From IMG/VR virus record IMGVR_UViG_3300042731_001194, positions 1 to 26,890 of that record: a stretch of DNA of 26,890 nucleotides; one strand, written 5' to 3'. The position numbers and the translations under genes are program-made. Position 1 is the stretch's first letter, and the number at the start of each line of letters is the position of its first letter. The notes under the pieces are model-generated. The model was not told where the DNA came from and ran no database searches. It saw only the letters and a list, made by a program, of their open reading frames with translations. This stretch comes from a virus. Shown here piece after piece: positions 1,570-25,309 of this stretch.

Positions 1570-2022
1570 ATGGTAGCAATATTAGTGAACGGAGAAATAA
1601 AAACATTTGGTTCAGTCCCTAAAAATTGGACTGATGAAAATGGGTTGCACTTAAACATTGGCAACGGAGCTGCATTTGGATTTAAAGATGTTGTAATACC
1701 TAGTTATGATTCTAGAGCGCAAGAATTAGCAAACTTACACTTAGAAGGAAATGTTTATACTTATGATGTTATAGACAAACCCATTCAAGAAACACTTTCT
1801 AAATTAAAAGAGCAAAAAATATCTGAGTTAAAATCTATTGCAGGAAATAAATTGTCTGAAACAGATTGGTACATTATTCGCGAAGCAGATAGCGGAGAAG
1901 CTACACCACAATCTATTAAAGATGAAAGAGCAGCATTAAGGGCAAAATCAAATGATTTAGAAGTACAAATAAATACTTTAACAACTAAAAAAGAAGTTGT
2001 ATTATTTGACATTAGCTTTTAA
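1570..2022 (+). CDS. Tail-fibre-assembly-like protein
   Basis: 150 aa, starting 8 nt after the fibre stop with an AAAAATAAAC leader. The N-terminal half is a small beta-rich domain (VAILVNGEIKTFGSVPKNW). The C-terminal half (residues about 75-150) is helical and contains LSETDWYIIREADSG followed by KDERAALRAKSNDLEVQI. This resembles the phage tail assembly chaperone family (DUF4376 / Phage_tail_APC type), in which a short helical region with a tDW motif and a following R-x-x-LR helix is conserved. Members usually sit just after a fibre gene and help it fold or trimerise, matching the position here. The family match is from recognition of the motif pattern and is moderate. The alternative is a minor structural protein of the fibre. 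Confidence 0.5.
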   Translation: MVAILVNGEIKTFGSVPKNWTDENGLHLNIGNGAAFGFKDVVIPSYDSRAQELANLHLEGNVYTYDVIDKPIQETLSKLKEQKISELKSIAGNKLSETDWYIIREADSGEATPQSIKDERAALRAKSNDLEVQINTLTTKKEVVLFDISF

Positions 2023-2032
2023 AAATTAAGTT

Positions 2033-2578
2033 ATGTCTATAAATAATAGATTAATAAATACAGGAGAGTCATTAGGGCCTCCAGAAATAGGCCAGCTTAG
2101 GGAAGGGGGAATTGTTTTCTATATAAACGAAGCAAGTTCTTATGGATTTGTAGTTTCTTTAGATACTTGGCAAGTTAGATATGGTACAACATCCCCTATT
2201 TATAATGGATTAAGATTTAATGCTGCAAAATATATCGGACAAGGAGCGGCTAATACAGCTTTAATGTTAGCAACTTTTGGAGCAAGTAACGACACTCATA
2301 TAGCTTATTATACTCAAACTTATAATGCTGGCGGATATACGGATTGGTATATCCCATCTAATCTTGAATTAAGAGAGTATGCAAATATAAGGGGAACCAT
2401 AGATGCTGCTATTATAGCTAATGGAGGAACCACAAGAAACACAGGTGGATTTTTAGCTTCCAATTTAAAAAGTGAATCACTTGTAAATTCTATCAGCTTT
2501 GTTAGTGGTGCAGATTATACAGTAGGTATTACGGCAAACACTTTTAATACAAAATTTATAAGGACTTTTACATTTTAA
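2033..2578 (+). CDS. DUF1566 / C-type-lectin-like receptor-binding candidate
   Basis: 181 aa. After an N-terminal tag (NNRLINTG, residues 4-11), residues about 20-120 follow the DUF1566 (Lcl C-terminal) pattern: GQLREGGIVFYI, then GFVVSLDTW, then AKYIGQGAANT, then GGYTDWYIPSNLEL, where the DWYIPS..EL block is the family signature. These domains adopt a C-type-lectin-like fold and are common at the tips of bacterial and phage adhesins. It lies with two fibre genes upstream and a second putative adhesin downstream that carries the same N-terminal tag. The likely role is receptor recognition on the cell surface. No signal peptide is seen, as expected for a virion protein. The family call is good. 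The receptor is unknown. Confidence 0.65.
   Translation: MSINNRLINTGESLGPPEIGQLREGGIVFYINEASSYGFVVSLDTWQVRYGTTSPIYNGLRFNAAKYIGQGAANTALMLATFGASNDTHIAYYTQTYNAGGYTDWYIPSNLELREYANIRGTIDAAIIANGGTTRNTGGFLASNLKSESLVNSISFVSGADYTVGITANTFNTKFIRTFTF
2042..2066 (+). repeat. Copy 1 of a shared adhesin N-terminal coding repeat
   Basis: 25 nt encoding N-N-R-L-I-N-T-G plus one base. It differs at two positions from 2588-2612 at the start of the next adhesin gene. Both copies are in frame at codons 3-4 onward, so this looks like a duplicated docking tag rather than chance. Confidence 0.7.
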
Positions 2579-2581
2579 ATA

Positions 2582-3313
2582 ATGTTAAATAAAAGATTAA
2601 TAAATACTGGAGTAAATGCAATAGCAGGGCCTACAGGGGCTACTTTAGAAGCGTTAGGGTTTGGGGGAGATTCTTATCCAGTTGCTTGGCAATATGGGAT
2701 AGATGCTCATGATGGCTTAATATACAATATAAACAGAGATAGTTTTGCAATTGGAATAAGTACTTGGCCGCCTCCGGTTTTTTCAGCTACTTATACTACT
2801 ACATATCCAAACCCTTACAAACCGCTTGTAATTTCAAGAGAAAGTGATGGAAATTTTTTAGTTGTTATAACAAGTTTAGGCACAAAAAGATATAATCCTT
2901 CTTTTGTTGAAATAGACACTCTTGGCGGTAGCGGTTGGGATATTACAGCTACAGATATTGGATATGCTGCTACAGATACTTCAAATTGGGTTTATATATA
3001 TGATAATACTGGGGGGCTTTTAAATATGTGGATTCCATCTCAGGGGGGAACTTCTGCATATAATGGTATTGCTTGGGATGGTAGCGGATTGTGGGTAAGT
3101 AGCGAAACAAGCATTGGAAGCGGAACAGGAGGAGTTTGTTATAAGTATGATTTAAATGGAAACTATACCGGTTATTCTTTTCCTCTTTGGGCTGACAGAC
3201 CTTTTGCTACTATGGGATATGACCCAATTCAAGAAAAGTTTTATGGTTTTCAAAGACCATCTGGTGCAGCTTATGGTGGCACGATTGCAAGATATGGGGC
3301 TACATTTAATTAA
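2582..3313 (+). CDS. Putative receptor-binding protein, beta-propeller-like
   Basis: 243 aa. The N-terminus, MLNKRLINTG, nearly repeats that of the preceding protein, followed by a short GPTGA collagen-like turn. The rest is rich in aromatic beta strands with recurring blocks such as YGIDAHDGLIYNIN, FVEIDTLGG, WVYIYDNTGGLLNMW, GIAWDGSGLWVSS and YKYDLNGNYTGYS. These look like blades of an NHL/WD-type propeller: strand, Asp-Gly turn, strand. The spacing is irregular, so the fold is an inference. Its position directly after a lectin-like adhesin and the shared N-terminal tag suggest both attach to the same fibre or baseplate site. I do not recognise a named family. Confidence 0.5.
   Translation: MLNKRLINTGVNAIAGPTGATLEALGFGGDSYPVAWQYGIDAHDGLIYNINRDSFAIGISTWPPPVFSATYTTTYPNPYKPLVISRESDGNFLVVITSLGTKRYNPSFVEIDTLGGSGWDITATDIGYAATDTSNWVYIYDNTGGLLNMWIPSQGGTSAYNGIAWDGSGLWVSSETSIGSGTGGVCYKYDLNGNYTGYSFPLWADRPFATMGYDPIQEKFYGFQRPSGAAYGGTIARYGATFN
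2588..2612 (+). repeat. Copy 2 of the shared adhesin N-terminal coding repeat
   Basis: Matches 2042-2066 at 23 of 25 positions and encodes N-K-R-L-I-N-T-G. The two differences are T to A at position 6 and A to T at position 21 of the unit. Confidence 0.7.
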
Positions 3314-3728: not shown

Positions 3729-4013
3729 ATGGGGGAAAACATGCCTAAGTTAAATGATAATTCAGGTATATCTATAAATATAAAATGGCTTATACAGATT
3801 ATCATACTAGTCGGAGGGGCTGTGTTATTATACACAAGGCTTGAAACAAGAGTTAAAGACAACGAGGCAGAAATAAAATCTATAAGATTTAATCAAAACA
3901 CTTATATATTCCCAGATATAAGAGTTTTAGAAGATGACATTATAGAATATAAGTTAGAACGCGAAAGAGTTCGAAAAGATATTCAAATGCTAAAAAACCA
4001 AAAAAACAAGTAA
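3729..4013 (+). CDS. One-TM coiled-coil protein, spanin-like or minor lysis candidate
   Basis: 94 aa. It has a short polar N-terminus, one membrane segment (residues about 20-36, WLIQIIILVGGAVLLYT) and then a charged helix with heptad character to the C-terminus (LETRVKDNEAEIKSI, VLEDDIIEYKLERERVRKDI). An N-in membrane anchor with a long periplasmic coiled coil is the layout of an inner-membrane spanin subunit, but no o-spanin lipoprotein is embedded or adjacent, so this is only a suggestion. A second in-frame ATG lies at 3741 after a GGGGG run and would shorten the protein by four residues. It could equally be a superinfection or membrane-morphology protein. Confidence 0.6.
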   Translation: MGENMPKLNDNSGISINIKWLIQIIILVGGAVLLYTRLETRVKDNEAEIKSIRFNQNTYIFPDIRVLEDDIIEYKLERERVRKDIQMLKNQKNK

Positions 4014-4044
4014 TAATATAACTATTAACTATAAACCAAAACCA

Positions 4045-4335
4045 ATGACACTTTTTTACCGCACTCATTCGTGGAGTAGTGACCCACAAATTACCGATGA
4101 AACCAAGGAGTTATGGAAGCATATTGCCACCAAAGCTAACTGGAGAATCACCCAATTACCAAACGGTTTTTTTCAAACCGAATACCAAGATCTAAAAGAC
4201 AAAGATACTTGGAACGACGTAACCAGAAGAGAAACTATTAAAGGCGCAGAAGCAGCTATTGATTCAACAATAGAGCATTACGCTAAAAAATTAGAGTTCT
4301 TAGACGGGCCTAAAGTCGTTAAAACCTTTAAATAA
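4045..4335 (+). CDS. Small hypothetical phage protein
   Basis: 96 aa, soluble, with no signal or TM segment. Starting with TLFYRTHSWSSDPQITDETK, it has a predicted helix around ELWKHIATKANW, a short beta stretch (RITQLPNGFFQTEYQDL) and a C-terminal helix with many acidic and basic residues. It looks like an alpha/beta mini-domain seen in other marine phages, but I cannot name a family. It is the last gene before groEL and is separated from it by 30 nt that carry only the pentamer leader, so the two are probably co-transcribed. Confidence 0.6.
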   Translation: MTLFYRTHSWSSDPQITDETKELWKHIATKANWRITQLPNGFFQTEYQDLKDKDTWNDVTRRETIKGAEAAIDSTIEHYAKKLEFLDGPKVVKTFK

Positions 4336-4365: not shown

Positions 4366-5922
4366 ATGTCAGACGCAATTGTCAAAAACCTAAGTTTCGG
4401 TAATGAAGCTAAGGACAAAGTATTTGAAGGTATCACAAAACTCACAAAAGCCGTTAGTTCCACTCTTGGAGCTAGCGGTAAATGTGTGATGCTTGAAGAT
4501 GGAAATGGGAGACCAATTATAACTAAAGACGGTGTAACAGTAGCAGATAGTATTATACTATTAGATCCTGTTGAAAATATGGGAGCTACCCTTTTAAAAG
4601 AAGCTGCTAGAAAAACCGTAAGTGAAGCAGGAGACGGAACAACAACCGCAACTGTATTAGCGCACGCTATATTAACTGAAGCATACAATGTAGCTGATAA
4701 AATTAGCTCAAGGGATTTAAAGATTGGTATAGATAACGCTGTTGAAAAAGTAATTAAATACTTAGAATCAATATCAGTTGGCGTACAAGGAGATATGATA
4801 GATCAAATAGCTGCTATATCGACAAATAACGATAACGAACTGGGTAAGATTATAGGTGATGCTTTTAGATCTGTTGATGAAACAGGAGTAGTTATGATGG
4901 AAACGTCGTCAGATGGTACTACAGCTGTAGAAATAGTTGACGGTGTACAATATAATAAAGGACTAACTAATTCGCATTTTGTTACAAGCAAAAGCCAAAG
5001 AGTTGCTGAATTAGAAAACCCATATGTATTATTAGTTGAATCACCAATTGATAATATTAGACAAATTCAAAGTGTATTAGAGTTTGTTATAAAAGGTAAT
5101 AAGTCTTTACTTATAATTGCAGATGTAGATCAACCTGTTTTGGCTACACTGGCTATGAATAAAGCTAAAGGCAATTTAAAAATTAATGTTATTAATGCTC
5201 CTACATATGGCGTTGCTAAAAAAGAAACATTAGATGATCTTGCAATGCTTACTGGAGCTACTATTATAAATGAAGATTTAGGAGATGACCTAGATTTAAT
5301 TAATCCTCAATACTTAGGTAGTTGTGTAAAGAGTGTAACTACGGATGAGGAAACTATATTACAAGTTGGAGAAGTTTCAGAAGAAGTTAAAGAGGCCATA
5401 GAGGTTATTAAAGAAAAACTAACCACAGCTACAAAGCCGCATGAAATTGTAAAACTTGAAACAAGGTTAGCAAGGTTAGCTGCTAAAATAGCTATAGTAA
5501 AAGTTGGAGCTAACTCAGAAATAGAATTAAAAGAAAAGAAAGATAGAGTTGAAGACGCTATCTGCGCCACTAAGGCAGCTATTAAAGAAGGCATTGTGCC
5601 AGGAGGTGGAATTGCATTATTAAATGCCTCTGAAACAGTTAAGTCCAATACAATTGGGGAAGAAGCGCTCCTAGAGGCTATTAAGGCGCCATTTAAGACG
5701 ATTTTAGAAAATGCTAGTATAGAATATCAAGAATCTAAAATAGGCAAAGGAATGGGCTTAAATGTAATAACTGGCAAAAAGGTTAATATGATTAAACATG
5801 GTATTATCGACCCCTTGCTAGTTACTAAAAGTGCGCTTAGAAATGCAGCCTCCGTAGCTACAACTATTTTATCTACAGATTGTGTAATTAATAATTTAAG
5901 AATTAATGAAGGCAATAGGTAG
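4366..5922 (+). CDS. groEL: Phage chaperonin GroEL (Cpn60)
   Basis: 518 aa ATP-driven folding chamber subunit. All chaperonin landmarks are in order: TLGASGK (33-39), KDGVTVA with D55, GDGTTTATVLA with D90, an apical domain beginning near VDGVQYNKG, the RVEDA..ATKAA block with D397 (equivalent to the catalytic D398 of E. coli), GIVPGGGIALL, and GIIDP with D482. It is shorter than the usual 540-550 aa because the Gly-Gly-Met tail is missing (it ends right after the equatorial domain) and the late intermediate/equatorial region is trimmed. The bacterial LGPKGRNV loop reads LGASGKCV. All catalytic Asp residues are present, so it should be active. Its 3' end overlaps groES by 17 nt. In phages such proteins are thought to help fold capsid or tail proteins. 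Confidence 0.97.
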   Translation: MSDAIVKNLSFGNEAKDKVFEGITKLTKAVSSTLGASGKCVMLEDGNGRPIITKDGVTVADSIILLDPVENMGATLLKEAARKTVSEAGDGTTTATVLAHAILTEAYNVADKISSRDLKIGIDNAVEKVIKYLESISVGVQGDMIDQIAAISTNNDNELGKIIGDAFRSVDETGVVMMETSSDGTTAVEIVDGVQYNKGLTNSHFVTSKSQRVAELENPYVLLVESPIDNIRQIQSVLEFVIKGNKSLLIIADVDQPVLATLAMNKAKGNLKINVINAPTYGVAKKETLDDLAMLTGATIINEDLGDDLDLINPQYLGSCVKSVTTDEETILQVGEVSEEVKEAIEVIKEKLTTATKPHEIVKLETRLARLAAKIAIVKVGANSEIELKEKKDRVEDAICATKAAIKEGIVPGGGIALLNASETVKSNTIGEEALLEAIKAPFKTILENASIEYQESKIGKGMGLNVITGKKVNMIKHGIIDPLLVTKSALRNAASVATTILSTDCVINNLRINEGNR

Positions 5923-6166
5923 AAACTTAATAATAGAAAAAGTAAAAGAAGGAACAACCGCTACAAAAGGAGGTTTACTTCTTGCGGAGAATCAAAGAGA
6001 AGATATTAGATATATTATGGCTAATGTTGTTTCTGTTGGTGATGAAACAGCAGGTATAAAAGAGGGCGATCAAATTTATTATGATCGTCACGCTGGACAC
6101 AAAATAGAAGTGGACAAAAATATTTACCATATTATAAAGTTACAAGATGTAGTTGTTGTTTTATGA
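5906..6166 (+). CDS. groES: Phage co-chaperonin GroES (Cpn10)
   Basis: 86 aa lid for the GroEL chamber. The N-terminal strand RNLIIEKVKE is followed by a mobile-loop region, TTATKGGLLLAENQRED, with the GGLLL core that corresponds to the GroEL-binding GGIVL of bacterial GroES. Then come NVVSVGD, the IKEGDQIYYDRHAGHKIEV strand pair and a C-terminal LQDVVVVL strand, as in Cpn10. The length is slightly under the 95-97 aa norm. It starts inside groEL (17-nt overlap) and its stop overlaps the next start as ATGA, so all three genes are probably translationally coupled. The order groEL then groES is the reverse of bacterial operons, which argues against a simple recent capture of a host operon. Confidence 0.93.
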   Translation: MKAIGRNLIIEKVKEGTTATKGGLLLAENQREDIRYIMANVVSVGDETAGIKEGDQIYYDRHAGHKIEVDKNIYHIIKLQDVVVVL

Positions 6167-20723: not shown

Positions 20724-23700
20724 ATGGCTGAAATTAAAAATAATTTTATAAAAGCCAAGATGAACAAAGACCTAGACGATAGGCTTGTTCCTCCTGGAGA
20801 ATATAGAAATGCTCAAAATATATCTATAAGTAGGTCAGAAGGTTCTGACGTAGGTGCTTTAGAAAATATTTTAGGTAATTCTGTTATATCTTCTACTGTA
20901 CTAAATATACCTAATATAGATGTTATAGGCTTTCTTAACGATAATGCTACTGATAACATATATTTATTTTTAACAGACTATACTGACACGTCTGTTAGTG
21001 GCATATCTAACTTTGCTCCTTCAAATGCAAATTGTATTATATCAAGATACAATACTTCTACTAAAATATATACTAAACTTGTTCAAGGCAGATTTTTAAA
21101 CTTTGCAAAGAACAATCCTATAATTGGTGTAAATATACTTGAAAATCTTTTATTTTTTACAGATAATAGAAATCAGCCAAGAAAAATAAATGTTGATTTA
21201 GCTAATCCGAATGGCAGTGCAAATCCTACTTATTATTCTAGTGAAGATACCATTTCTGTAGCAAAGCCAGCGCCTCTTAAGGCAATAAAGCTAGTTAATA
21301 TAGCTCAGGGGTTACCATTAGAATCTACAATGATAAACCCCGCACAGGAGTTTATGCCTGATGGAACTACACCTAATCCGGATTACAATCCTAATTGGGC
21401 CGGTGATCCTAACTTTTTGCAAGACAAATTTGTTAGATTTAGCTATAGATATAAGTTTGATGATGGGGAATATTCTTTAATGGCTCCTTTTACACAAACA
21501 TGCTTTATCCCCAAACAACAGGGCTACTTTTTAGATGGAGATCAAGACGAGGCATATAGAAGTACAATAGTTCAATTTGTAGAAAATAATGTAACTCAAA
21601 TAGGTTTAAATATACCTTTTGAAACCGAAGATCCCTCTACTGACTTACATATTAGTGAATTAGAAATAATATATAGAGAATCTGATACAACTAATATAAA
21701 AGTTGTTGAGTCTATTCCTGTAAGCTCGGTAGTTAACAAGATGAAATCTAATGTAAACAAAAACGTTTACAATTTTACTTATATATCTACTAAGCCATAT
21801 AAAACTTTACCCGCAGATCAGGGAATTAGAGTTTATGATATGGTCCCAGTTAGAGCTTTAGCTCAAGAGGTTTCAGGAAATAGAGTTATGTATGGGAATT
21901 TCCATGATAGAATGTCCCCTCCTAAATCTATAGATTACGGGGTCGGTTATTCTTTGAAGTTGCAAGATAGCCAAGTAGAATATCCTAATCACACTACAAA
22001 ACAAAATAGAAATTACCAAGTTGGTATTGTTTTATCCGATAAATTTGGTAGACAATCTTCTGTCGTGTTATCTTCAAAAGATACTGGGGATAATGAAGAA
22101 GGCATCCAATATGGTGGTTCAACTATATATTTACCTTATTTTAACGGGGATTTATCTGATATATTAAATTGGCCAGGTTATGCATTAAGGGTCTTGTTTA
22201 ATTCACCTATCCCATCTAATTTAGATATTAAAGGTTATCCTGGCCTATATAGTGAAACAAACCCTTTAGGTTGGTATTCATATAAAATAGTTGTTAGACA
22301 ACAAGAACAAGATTACTATAATGTATTTTTGCCTGGTATTTTAAATGGTTATCCAAGCGGTACAACCAATTTTAATACAGAGGTAGACCAAACGGCAAAC
22401 ATTGTATTAATAAATGATAACATAAATAAAATTCCTAGAGATTTAGCTGAGGTTGGTCCAGATCAAAAACAATATAGAAGTAGTGTTCAAATATTTGGTA
22501 GAGTAACCCCAGATCCATTAGATTCTACTTTAAATAAACAATATAAGCCAGGAATATTATCGGACACAGTTGTATCAATATCTACTGTTAATGACACTAA
22601 CTATAATGAAACTCAAGGAACAAATTTAGTATATCCAGAGTTTTATCAAAGTGAAACAAATCCACTAATAGGAAGAATTAGTACGCAGCAACCAATAGGT
22701 ATTATTGGTAGCGCTACATACAATATAACATTAGGTGTTTATGAAACAGCTCCTGTTGTATCTTTATTAGATATATATTGGGAAACTAGTACAACTGGAT
22801 TAATATCAGAATTAAACCAAGCTATAAGCCAAGGTTTTGCTGGGCCTTATTTTATTAATTTAAATGGCGGCTATAATCAAAATGAAGGCATGGCATCTGG
22901 AACTAAAGTAGTTAGTGGGGCTTTTGCGGAAGACAGTAATAACTTACCTATAGTTACTCCTGTTAATTTTAGCTTTAGCTCTGTTATTGATGGAAATGGT
23001 GTAGATAGAACAAGCGAATTTACAATATCACAAACACCAAATTCTGCATATCAATTTGATATAGCTACAAATGGCTTGTTTTATTATGGATCAAATTCAT
23101 CTTATGACTTAGGCAATAGATCTTTTACTTTTACAATTAATTGCCAAGATATAGCTGGCGGCACAACAGAACAATTACAATTTACTGGTTCTGTAGCCAA
23201 TGTAGCTCCTAGCATAACTAATTGTCCTGCTAATCAATTGTTATTAGAAGGATTAACATCTCCTTGGGAAGTTTATACAATGGAAGGAAACAATGGCTCC
23301 GCGTCTGGGGTTGATCAAACACAAGGATTAACTTGGAGTATAAAAAGCGTTAGTTATAATGGAACATTAATAGAAGATCAAGATTTATTTACAATAGATG
23401 AAATTTCAGGTGTTATTAACCAACCAAATGGTAATGCCCAAAAAACGGGTAATTATCAGTTAGTTATAGGATTAGAGGATGCAGGCGGATTAACTTCTAC
23501 TGATTGTAATCTTTATGTTTCTTTTGGCGTACCACAAGAAATTTCTTTACAATTTTATTTAGAAACGCCTTATACAGATAGCTGGAATGTTGAATGGATT
23601 ACTGTTGATGGAACAAGACAGCAATCATTACCTGGGCCTTGCAATACTGGGTGTGAAACAATTAATACTAGGTCAGTACCAAGCAATAATACCATGGTAG

Positions 23701-23876
23701 CTAGAGTAAGCAACTATTCTAACCCATTGCAAGATGTAGCTCAATATTCATTTATAGTTGATAATACTGTAGTTAATACTCAAACAAAACAACCTCCATT
23801 TGATGCAACTGTAGAATATACTTTTACAAATGTACAAGCACAGTCTGAATATAGAGTAGAAGTGTATTACGGTTAG
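20724..23876 (+). CDS. Tail nozzle / stabilisation protein, N-terminal part, with Ig/cadherin-like domains
   Basis: 1050 aa. Residues 1-60 carry the signature NKDLDDRLVPPGEYRNAQNI, which I associate with tail-nozzle/packaged-DNA-stabilisation proteins (P22 gp10 / T7 gp12 type). The next 600 or so residues are beta-rich and alternate structural blocks (FRFSYRYKFDDGEYSLMAPF-like segment, FGRQSSVVLSSKDTG), ending near SLLDIYWETSTTGLISELN (about residue 675-690). Residues about 715-930 form at least two cadherin/Ig-like domains (QLQFTGSVANVAPSITNCP, LTWSIKS, SGVINQPNG, NYQLVIGLEDAGG). About 930-1050 looks like a further Ig-like domain with paired Cys. It ends at a TAG. The following gene appears to continue the nozzle. 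Confidence 0.65.
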   Translation: MAEIKNNFIKAKMNKDLDDRLVPPGEYRNAQNISISRSEGSDVGALENILGNSVISSTVLNIPNIDVIGFLNDNATDNIYLFLTDYTDTSVSGISNFAPSNANCIISRYNTSTKIYTKLVQGRFLNFAKNNPIIGVNILENLLFFTDNRNQPRKINVDLANPNGSANPTYYSSEDTISVAKPAPLKAIKLVNIAQGLPLESTMINPAQEFMPDGTTPNPDYNPNWAGDPNFLQDKFVRFSYRYKFDDGEYSLMAPFTQTCFIPKQQGYFLDGDQDEAYRSTIVQFVENNVTQIGLNIPFETEDPSTDLHISELEIIYRESDTTNIKVVESIPVSSVVNKMKSNVNKNVYNFTYISTKPYKTLPADQGIRVYDMVPVRALAQEVSGNRVMYGNFHDRMSPPKSIDYGVGYSLKLQDSQVEYPNHTTKQNRNYQVGIVLSDKFGRQSSVVLSSKDTGDNEEGIQYGGSTIYLPYFNGDLSDILNWPGYALRVLFNSPIPSNLDIKGYPGLYSETNPLGWYSYKIVVRQQEQDYYNVFLPGILNGYPSGTTNFNTEVDQTANIVLINDNINKIPRDLAEVGPDQKQYRSSVQIFGRVTPDPLDSTLNKQYKPGILSDTVVSISTVNDTNYNETQGTNLVYPEFYQSETNPLIGRISTQQPIGIIGSATYNITLGVYETAPVVSLLDIYWETSTTGLISELNQAISQGFAGPYFINLNGGYNQNEGMASGTKVVSGAFAEDSNNLPIVTPVNFSFSSVIDGNGVDRTSEFTISQTPNSAYQFDIATNGLFYYGSNSSYDLGNRSFTFTINCQDIAGGTTEQLQFTGSVANVAPSITNCPANQLLLEGLTSPWEVYTMEGNNGSASGVDQTQGLTWSIKSVSYNGTLIEDQDLFTIDEISGVINQPNGNAQKTGNYQLVIGLEDAGGLTSTDCNLYVSFGVPQEISLQFYLETPYTDSWNVEWITVDGTRQQSLPGPCNTGCETINTRSVPSNNTMVARVSNYSNPLQDVAQYSFIVDNTVVNTQTKQPPFDATVEYTFTNVQAQSEYRVEVYYG

Positions 23877-23911
23877 TATTAAATATTTACAAAAATAAGT
23901 GATTATAAATT

Positions 23912-25309
23912 ATGGCAGCATCAATAGAAGTATCATACTTTAATTCGTTTTGGTTAAAACAGGTTCGTAATTCAAGCAACGAAATCGTTTGGCCAAATGG
24001 TTATCCGTATCAAAGTGCTTTTCCTGGAACTGCTACAGCTGGAGATAATAATTGGTTTATTGAAGAATCAAGAATTAGAGGGGGATATAATAACACTCAA
24101 GTGGATTTAGGTGTAAAAGCTTATTTAGTTGAAGACGAGCCACAACAGCAGCATCGATCTAATGCTTTAATATATTCAGGTATATTTAATTCAAGAACAG
24201 GTGTTAATAATACAAATCAATTTTCAGTAGGCGAAAGCATAACTAAAGCCACTGATCCAGCAAATGGATCAATTCAAAAACTATATGCAGAAGATACAAA
24301 CTTAATAGTATTTCAAGAAAACAAAGTAAGTAGAGCTTTAATAGACAAAGACGCTATTTATTCTGCAGAAGGAAATGCAGCTGTAACTTCAACTCAATTA
24401 GTTATAGGACAAATAGTACCTTATGCTGGTAACTATGGAATAAGCCGAAACCCAGAAAGTTTCGCTGTATATGGTTATCAAAAATACTTTGCAGACAAAG
24501 ATAGAAATGCTATATTAAGATTATCTGTTGATGGATTAACTGAAATATCTGCTTACGGAATGTCTGATTACTTTAGAGACAATTTAAGCAGTATAAGTGA
24601 AAGTGGTAAAATTATAGGAGGCTATGATATACATAATAAAAATTATACTATATCACTACAGAAAACTCCTGCATGGCAAGAAAATGAAGATAACCCTGCT
24701 ACCTATGCAACATTAACTTTTGATGAGTTAGTTAACGGATGGAATAGTTTTTACACTTATAAACCTACAGCTGTAGGAAGTCTTAAAAATAAGTTTTATA
24801 GTTTTAAAAATGGCTCTATATATGAGCATTATACAAACTACAACGGAAATAATAGAGGTTACTTTTATGGTTCTTATGCTCCATCAAATATAACTTTTAT
24901 ATTTAATGAGAACTCGTCTGTATCTAAAAACTTCCAAACAGTAAATTACGAAGGAGATAATGGATGGCAAGTTACTAGTTTTGTATCAGATGCTCAAAAG
25001 TATGATTATGTAAATAATGGCTGGGTTAGTTATGACGACAAGACTGCTCAAGTGCCTAGCTACAGCCAAACATATGATGATGGCGGAATTATATATAGGT
25101 TAGGTTTTGATAGAAAAGAAAACAAATATTTTGCTAATTTAATAAGCAATAGTGCGCCAAGAGACGGTGAAATTATTTGGGGTAATGAAATGTCTGGTAT
25201 TAAAGGATATTTTGCTACTGTTACTTTTTCAACTGACGCAATTACTGATGTTGGAGGAGCAAAAGAGTTATGGAGCGTTGGATCTAAATTTGTAGTATCT
25301 TCGTATTAA
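23912..25309 (+). CDS. Tail nozzle protein, C-terminal part (separate gene)
   Basis: 465 aa. Starts SIEVSYFNSFWLKQVRNSS and runs through SNALIYSGIFNSRTGVNNTN, SITKATDPANGSIQKLYA, FQENKVSRALIDKDAIYSAE, GQIVPYAGNYGISRNPESFA, YFADKDRNAILRLSVDGLTE, ISAYGMSDYFRDNL. In other marine phages, as I remember them, this run follows the ETSTTGLISELN-type segment in one long nozzle protein. Here it is its own gene in a different reading frame, 35 nt after the previous stop with an A-rich leader. The C-terminal 200 residues are beta-rich (FYSYAPS.., YDYVNNGW, SVGSKFVVSSY). It probably assembles with the 1050-aa protein into the tail tip. Confidence 0.65.
   Translation: MAASIEVSYFNSFWLKQVRNSSNEIVWPNGYPYQSAFPGTATAGDNNWFIEESRIRGGYNNTQVDLGVKAYLVEDEPQQQHRSNALIYSGIFNSRTGVNNTNQFSVGESITKATDPANGSIQKLYAEDTNLIVFQENKVSRALIDKDAIYSAEGNAAVTSTQLVIGQIVPYAGNYGISRNPESFAVYGYQKYFADKDRNAILRLSVDGLTEISAYGMSDYFRDNLSSISESGKIIGGYDIHNKNYTISLQKTPAWQENEDNPATYATLTFDELVNGWNSFYTYKPTAVGSLKNKFYSFKNGSIYEHYTNYNGNNRGYFYGSYAPSNITFIFNENSSVSKNFQTVNYEGDNGWQVTSFVSDAQKYDYVNNGWVSYDDKTAQVPSYSQTYDDGGIIYRLGFDRKENKYFANLISNSAPRDGEIIWGNEMSGIKGYFATVTFSTDAITDVGGAKELWSVGSKFVVSSY

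Follow-up and report, generated by a model that had tools for sequence, protein, structure and literature searches.

Why should two neighbouring adhesin-like genes of one virus begin with almost the same short peptide? The question is raised by a 26,890-base virus record (IMGVR_UViG_3300042731_001194, positions 1-26,890; this whole stretch is hereafter called the window), in which a fibre gene group made up of a fibre gene, a 150-residue gene and two adhesin-like genes has at its far end a gene pair with one N-terminal tag, NNRLINTG in the first protein and NKRLINTG in the second. The sharing of this tag is confirmed here, and it is far more general than the window alone. The reading that we prefer, at a probability of roughly 0.7, is that the tag serves for attachment, as a short N-terminal peptide by which interchangeable adhesins plug into a conserved module composed of a fibre tip and a chaperone-like protein.

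The 181-residue protein begins MSINNRLINTGESLG and the 243-residue protein begins MLNKRLINTGVNAIA, i.e., the two gene starts read MSI-NNRLINTG (2033-2578) and ML-NKRLINTG (2582-3313). At the DNA level, positions 2042-2066 and 2588-2612 are identical at 23 of 25 nucleotides (nt), with only two further matching nt upstream. When the best 25-nt match within the first 45 nt was scored for 465 gene pairs of the window, this pair reached 23 and the runner-up 18, and the 22-nt tag consensus, with up to three mismatches allowed, was found at only these two sites of the window and in none of 100 shuffles. Translation, the gene-pair comparison and the shuffles thus confirm what the initial annotation had claimed, namely that two adhesins of the window share an N-terminal tag with 23 of 25 identical nt. 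From the two peptides and the codon usage of the window, 19.7 identities out of 25 are expected (P for 23 or more, 0.031), so that conservation of the peptide, in DNA this rich in AT, accounts for most of the match. The labels that had been given to the bodies fared less well: "lectin-like" stands in part for the 181-residue protein, as a weak, sub-threshold similarity (E-value 0.064) to Lcl_C, a family that we take to be C-type-lectin-like, and "propeller-like" was not confirmed for the 243-residue protein, which matches neither Pfam nor PHROG. The 181-residue body matches phrog_4245 and resembles the downstream genes of loci L069 and L073; no relatives of this protein were found in the phages collection, and none of the 243-residue protein in viral_contigs. 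The features of the locus, with genes numbered upstream from the first tagged gene, are as follows.

1262-1561, + strand: C-terminal domain of the tail fibre (gene -2), its conserved "fibre tip" end, from a family with a conserved C-terminus (phrog_9942, tail fiber); the boundary at 1262 is an estimate (the last ~100 residues), and the fibre open reading frame (ORF) is open at the left end of the window
1570-2022, + strand: gene -1, the 150-residue partner, resembling Tfa and tail assembly chaperones (AlphaFold2, phrog_4912)
2033-2578, + strand: first tagged adhesin-like gene, 181 residues, with a weakly Lcl_C-like body
2042-2065, + strand: tag NNRLINTG, residues 4-11 of the 181-residue adhesin
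2582-3313, + strand: second tagged adhesin-like gene, 243 residues, without a family match
2588-2611, + strand: tag NKRLINTG, residues 3-10 of the 243-residue adhesin

The DNA pattern of the tag matched 62 IMG/VR stretches, N-terminally in 53 and at other positions in nine, and in the 53 N-terminal matches the peptide starts two or three residues past the initiator Met. When these 53 loci and the window were taken together, the gene directly upstream of the tagged gene belonged to one family in 52 of 54 loci; a profile search added L044, where this gene is cut by the contig end, which brings the count to 53 of 54, whereas L035 has its tagged gene at contig base 84, too near the end for the upstream gene to be judged. 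The conserved partner that the initial annotation had proposed to look for is therefore the gene directly upstream. The gene before the partner (gene -2) also belongs to one family, as judged by its C-terminal domain, in 49 of the 54 loci, the remaining five contigs being too short to reach it; the C-terminus of this family follows the pattern QVFTKTL..TFSN..GMVKD..ITG...GTYDGTVSNLIQI...SISQ.

For the reciprocal search the query was the upstream gene family, in the form of a 21-sequence alignment (A1) from tag-selected loci. At least 600 stretches with at least 519 relatives were obtained, the best 80 of which were used, and the counts of downstream genes refer to the 68 non-identical ones among 77 partner-selected genes. 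Degenerate tags such as MSLNKRLMSS, MGFNKKFFTTGG, MAVNKRLLQGA, MGLNKRLIGAG and MSLGRRLISTG were observed downstream of the partner, and the motif M-x(1-3)-[KRNDE]-[KR]-[LIVMF]-[LIVMF] occurred in 62 of the 68 downstream genes, as compared with 3 of the 579 remaining ORFs in these loci (stricter form, 50/68 vs 0/579; 56/62 after dropping six genes on loci with DNA identical to that of tag-selected loci). This motif was written after seeing the data, an earlier and narrower expression having given 16 of 86 (80 partner loci and six phage records). As a check on the post hoc motif, a score matrix that leaves out the gene's own body cluster, with an anchor found by a similar expression, placed 63 of the 68 downstream genes within the top 1% of the background. 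Adhesin-like genes of many other phages thus carry the tag, so that the refutation named in the initial annotation, its absence from adhesins of other genomes, did not come about. The cassette of fibre tip, partner and tagged adhesin occurs in the crAss-like phage of the window as well as in loci that encode a tail tape measure protein (one family, present in eight loci and identified via one representative, L069), and is therefore not confined to one tail type.

No tag was observed after matches to only the C-terminal half of the partner (L149-L160, contig-cut genes excluded) or after weak matches (L148, HTVC202P). The genes behind the distant HTVC202P-type chaperone (80 loci) have other N-termini, with the motif in 0 of 79; in these loci the bodies look homologous and the start varies, which is the opposite of the pattern of the tagged cassettes. 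As a separate observation, L161-L240 and L148 show at least three N-termini (PLILGTNSIKDTG, LPTIATGNVGSALAG and IIIPANTISGG) on seemingly homologous adhesin-like bodies. With tblastn, the tag peptides gave no match in the phages collection, a weak test with a query so short, and none of the partner matches in that collection (10 and 8 records) covered 80% of the query. Six fetched phage records with a partner match had no tag downstream, and two of them had no downstream ORF by the rules used. In bacterial genomes the partner gave seven weak matches, mainly to its C-terminal half and without a tag, so that there is no sign of prophage carriage.

The commonest form of the tag is about 10 residues long, M-x-[LIF]-[NG]-K-R-L-I-x-T-G, and is usually followed by a Gly/Ala-rich stretch. 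An alignment of 49 proteins (the two window proteins and 47 downstream genes out of 82 non-redundant ones, with long or similar sequences dropped) has the consensus MxxNKRLIxTG at the start and almost nothing beyond. In 106 motif-aligned rows, which were chosen by the motif, are in part identical and have inflated bits at the four motif positions, the preceding hydrophobic and N/G positions and the following T-G were enriched (about 1.8-2.5 bits), and conservation fell below 0.7 bits by 11 residues past the K. The substitutions in these rows are mostly conservative and the codons varied, which points to selection acting on the peptide.

The bodies behind the tag are of many kinds. At an E-value of 0.01 or less, the 49 tagged proteins matched 19 Pfam families (which may overlap on one protein), among them DUF7483 in 21, Laminin_G_3 in 14, Gly_rich_2 and Lcl_C in two each, and LVIVD, BNR, Lactonase and Sortilin in one each; in addition, 21 of the 49 matched phrog_24898, "tail fiber protein". 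To judge by these families, the tagged proteins probably bind receptors. The same body families occur without the tag, which argues against the tag being part of the body fold. DUF7483-like bodies in eight phage records (of 69 matched; seven isolates and one fosmid) were never tagged: five start MAYTTI[NK]K, two start otherwise near the body, and that of S-B43 is a longer protein. The 181-residue protein has five weak relatives in viral_contigs (L002-L006, among which L002-L004 match identically), and at their possible starts no motif was found, the start codons being uncertain (L002 has only a GTG upstream); as to its relatives behind the partner, L069 is tagged and L073 not clearly so. No partner gene was detected in the stretches L002-L006 and L241-L248 at an E-value of 1e-3 or less. 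On the side, one of the weak relatives (L005:4716-5489) has the N-terminus MSMRYKGAVLSATAPVTSSSSAIGIWTMRQQ, which is presumably common in phage structural proteins, and the MAYTTI[NK]K start is common in DUF7483-like pelagiphage proteins (L241-L248, five of eight records), where it is possibly another attachment peptide.

The initial annotation had also suggested that the tag serves cassette exchange. The window and 32 other loci, some of which overlap or are near-identical, share 65-83% DNA similarity over parts of the fibre C-terminus and the partner. Counted from the adhesin ATG, the similarity starts at -699 to -744 (about 1289-1334 of the window), inside the C-terminal part of the fibre gene, in 17 of the 32 loci. 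It passes the ATG in 24 of 32, ending between +4 and +34 nt (in 23 of them between +23 and +34, where the tag ends); eight stop before the ATG, and no similarity block runs beyond +34 nt. From these limits, the shared block comprises the fibre tip, the partner and the tag, and the fibre shaft and the adhesin body lie outside it. Among all cassettes, DNA similarity spans the partner as far as the start of the adhesin in 447 pairs, which are not independent; it extends into the body in 89 of them and breaks off before +250 in 358, the breaks peaking near +30 to +45 and +120 to +165 nt. In the 230 pairs without any other DNA match in the body the median break is at +51 nt, with 103 of the breaks at +24 to +75. 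These pairs form 10 connected groups with 89 cassettes, and a group of 31, to which the window presumably belongs, has a median break of +32. In 37 of the 81 body-unmatched pairs that end inside the locus, the DNA is similar again no more than 120 nt past both stop codons. Pairs of the L028/L066 type show replacement: these two loci are 91% identical up to +38 nt, their bodies are dissimilar (0.05), and they are again 91% identical from 10-20 nt after the stop. Exchange of adhesins at the tag is thus well supported by the comparison of sequences, in that similarity breaks at or soon after the tag and the preceding genes, and sometimes the following ones, stay similar. A separate observation concerns window positions 3926-4078, a 153-nt stretch that lies downstream of the adhesins and is 98% identical in L083/L013 (one contig); in the same phage the partner gene region is only 73% similar, and the 98% stretch may mean a recent exchange.

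The partner gene (1570-2022) was modelled with AlphaFold2 at a predicted local distance difference test (pLDDT) score of 94.8, with beta strands within residues 2-69 and helices within residues 76-145, and the model thereby has the two-part architecture of tail fibre assembly chaperones as this is described in the part of PMC9608196 used here. The window partner matches phrog_4912, "tail fiber assembly" (E-value 3.4e-6), as do 11 of the 21 family members, and it stays below the cut-off for PF16778 (15 bits vs 26.6), which four of the 21 members match at an E-value of 0.1 or less. Its structural relatives among viral models are annotated as "tail assembly chaperone" (E-value about 1e-3) and DUF4376 (E-value 4e-3). 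Against the PDB, Foldseek gave none at an E-value of 0.001 or less, the rows of VIA-align mostly cover the helices, and a partner profile found nothing significant among PDB sequences (best E-value 0.25). The partner directly follows the gene -2 family in 49 of 54 loci, and the assignment of gene -2 as a fibre rests on the phrog_9942 match of the window gene. By sequence and predicted fold the partner resembles Tfa, short of being a proven member of that family. In L105, L110 and L117, as a further observation, a stand-alone ORF with only the N-terminal domain of the partner (profile positions ~2-71) precedes the full-length partner. A second tagged gene seemed to occur in L105, and this turned out to be an artefact, the supposed first gene being the full-length partner behind the stand-alone N-domain. 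Two complete sets of fibre tip, partner and tagged adhesin lie in one locus in L102, L115 and L135. Among the 91 cassettes that could be examined, only that of the window has a second tagged gene that lacks its own partner.

Where the tag would dock was approached by covariation. In 60 partner-selected non-redundant cassettes (three lacking gene -2, and at least one, L104, with a gene -2 ORF unlike the domain), tag similarity correlated with that of the gene -2 C-terminus (rho 0.35), the partner (0.29) and the body (0.16), and the first two correlations kept values of 0.26 and 0.22 when the other was held fixed. We lean towards the fibre tip, alone or together with the partner, as the socket; physical docking into one tail site, which the initial annotation had proposed, is something that we infer only. 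If so, the chaperone-like protein would fold and trimerise the fibre tip, on which it may remain, as in phage Mu. The basic-hydrophobic tag would plug into a socket of the fibre C-terminal domain, of the chaperone-like protein or of both, and the linker would leave the body, be it lectin-like, laminin-G, propeller or DUF7483, suspended from the tip and able to bind the host surface. Since nothing but the tag would have to fit, a new body would be enough to give a phage another receptor specificity, and in the window two adhesins would share one socket.

Several observations weigh against an attachment peptide, or against parts of that reading. The exact form [KN]RLINTG is present in only 6 of the 68 partner-selected downstream genes, the rest being degenerate, and the motif is missed in six of the 68, clearly in L073 and L136 and as a near miss in four. 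The second peak of breaks is frequent and lies away from the tag, and breaks could also arise from fast divergence of the bodies and not from their replacement. The covariation is confounded by phage lineage, and when the tag-selected loci are added, a set biased by having been chosen for one tag, the correlation of the tag is -0.02 with the partner and 0.22 with gene -2. No T4 gp10-like adapter was detected among the Pfam and PHROG matches of the subset of window genes scanned, the fibre gene being cut at the window end and most other loci being fragments. Finally, the AlphaFold model of the 181-residue protein has a pLDDT of only 35.7.

The alternative that deserves most attention is a chaperone-recognition peptide, by which the upstream protein would keep the nascent adhesin soluble or in register and then be released, without any joint in the virion. 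It would suit the chaperone-like nature of the upstream gene, the finding that each adhesin of the tandem cassettes L102, L115 and L135 has its own copy, and the report, in the part of PMC9608196 considered, that Pam3 gp25 was not detected in the virion. However, the chaperones of that account act on the tail fibre, which here is the gene before and not the gene after; moreover, the tag covaries with the fibre C-terminus at least as well as with the chaperone, and the window has one chaperone gene for two tagged genes, so that we consider this explanation rather unlikely. The frequent end of similarity at the tag, together with a match of the window copies beyond what codon usage predicts (P 0.031), might instead indicate that the tag is kept mainly as a DNA homology arm for recombination of adhesin genes, with a small role for the peptide. 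That is improbable, since the variation is mostly conservative at the protein level (K/R, L/F/I, I/F/L/M), different codons (TTA, CTT, TTC, ATA) are used at one position, the similar fibre-tip and partner genes upstream give a far longer arm, and the distance between the tag and the ATG is nearly fixed.

We give still less credit to the tag being the first strand of an old common domain, the bodies then being divergent homologues. The bodies form 12 clusters, 54 of the 68 falling into one by single linkage, and a short YTGNGxTQ-like segment recurs past the linker in DUF7483-like and other bodies, both of which would agree with a common domain. Against it stand the other starts of the DUF7483 bodies in the eight phage records mentioned above, the tagless Lcl_C-like relatives elsewhere, the Gly/Ala-rich stretch that usually separates tag and body, and the several unrelated Pfam families among the bodies; it is thus very improbable. 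The two window genes are adjacent and identical at 23 of 25 nt, and might reflect nothing more than the local copying of one gene start; as a general explanation this is contradicted by the presence of the tag at the same place in many other phages and is hardly credible, even if such a duplication may be the source of the tag on the second window gene. A signal peptide or a capsid-targeting sequence was set aside, by judgement only.

Attachment of receptor-binding proteins by short N-terminal peptides has been proposed before; what differs here are the peptide, the candidate sockets, the types of body and the tight linkage to a Tfa-like gene. According to the parts of PMC6872550 used here, the hepta- and undecapeptide of K1-5/SP6 and the conserved peptides of KP32-like and KP34-like phages are proposed to attach different receptor-binding proteins, an attachment that for the Klebsiella phages is itself inferred in that paper, and the peptide differs between phage groups. 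In K1-5/K1E/SP6, KP34 (MALxxLV) and KP32, 7-29 residues at the extreme N-terminus are conserved and the rest of the receptor-binding protein diverges; the peptide, with hydrophobic and, in K1-5, basic residues, would according to that proposal anchor various receptor-binding proteins in a socket (PMC6872550). A conserved N-terminal peptide on divergent proteins is also what is found here (62 of 68 genes; the 49-protein consensus at the start only). None of the peptides MAKLTKP, MIQRLGSSLVK and MALxxLV quoted in that source matched the tag consensus when compared by eye; since the peptide differs between phage groups, this mismatch excludes those groups, not the mode of action. In the systems as described there, the proposed socket is a T4 gp10-like adapter or anchor and the bodies are depolymerase spikes. 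In the present loci, what stays constant next to the tag is a fibre C-terminal domain and a Tfa-like gene, the bodies match DUF7483, laminin-G, Lcl_C and propeller families, and the cassette is seen both in a crAss-like phage and near a gene for a tape measure protein.

The position of the tagged adhesin recalls that of T2-type gp38. In T2, S16 and PP01, as far as the account in PMC12892980 was used, a separate fibre-tip adhesin must match the fibre with its N-terminus, and PP01 gp38 was made to fit T2 gp37 by giving it the first 113 residues of T2 gp38 in place of its own. There, however, the whole N-terminal region is involved and the body is glycine-rich (polyglycine helix), whereas here about 10 residues precede many kinds of body, and a chaperone-like gene sits between fibre and adhesin; no gp38 family was among the 19 Pfam families of the 49 tagged proteins, with Gly_rich_2 in two. 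By analogy, the tagged cassette would work like the K1-5-type peptides and sit where T2-type gp38 sits. In Mu Tfa and Pam3 gp25, a variable fibre-binding N-terminal beta domain is joined to a conserved helical C-terminal domain, and Mu Tfa remains on the virion, whereas Pam3 gp25 and T4 gp38 do not (PMC9608196, in part); tail fibre chaperones with DUF4376 are described for Alteromonas phages in the part of PMC10579305 used. The genes for Mu Tfa, Pam3 gp25 and the Alteromonas phage chaperones adjoin a fibre gene, as the partner does here (PMC9608196, PMC10579305). The passages drawn on describe a fibre and its chaperone, whereas the present cassette continues with a tagged adhesin, and wherever loci were examined the tag stood beside full-length partner members or contig-cut ones. 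The metaviromic islands of marine phages likewise link host-recognition genes with variable genome parts (PMC3909814, in part); here, in contrast, a frequent joint of variation is pinned to a defined peptide. In the literature searched, the string RLINTG was not found, nor was a paper with both DUF7483 and phage, and the titles and abstract openings of the papers listed gave no description of the tag.

If the preferred reading is true, a ten-residue N-terminal motif together with an upstream chaperone-like gene would mark host-binding proteins in uncultured phages, even without a recognisable protein family, as for the 243-residue window protein. It would also suggest concretely how adhesins that are not related can be fitted to the same tail, and it ties one frequent site of adhesin exchange to a defined peptide. 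A wider proposal, to which we give somewhat less than an even chance, is that the fibre C-terminal domain, the Tfa-like protein and the K-R-L-I tag form a portable adhesin socket, a block of ~750 nt that would move between unrelated tailed phages, both crAss-like and tape-measure-bearing. Other socket-tag systems might exist in parallel, with MAYTTI[NK]K and PLILGTNSIKDTG as candidate tags; adhesins would then be standardised plug-ins and the tag the physical standard. Much of the host-range evolution of uncultured phages would then be the swapping of bodies onto a few fixed tags.

Elsewhere the window encodes a crAss-like muzzle protein, recognized by a match to PF25731, which appears on two ORFs (20724-25309), with PF25731 on the first and the C-terminal domain family PF25729 on the next. 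The portal protein is phrog_6547, and the best 20 of its 87 relatives in the phages collection, at 42-51% identity, are from Flavobacterium, Maribacter and an environmental phage. Downstream of the adhesins, positions 4366-6166 hold a GroEL-like chaperonin gene (PF00118, E-value 1.2e-58) followed by an overlapping GroES-like gene (PF00166, E-value 1.8e-13).

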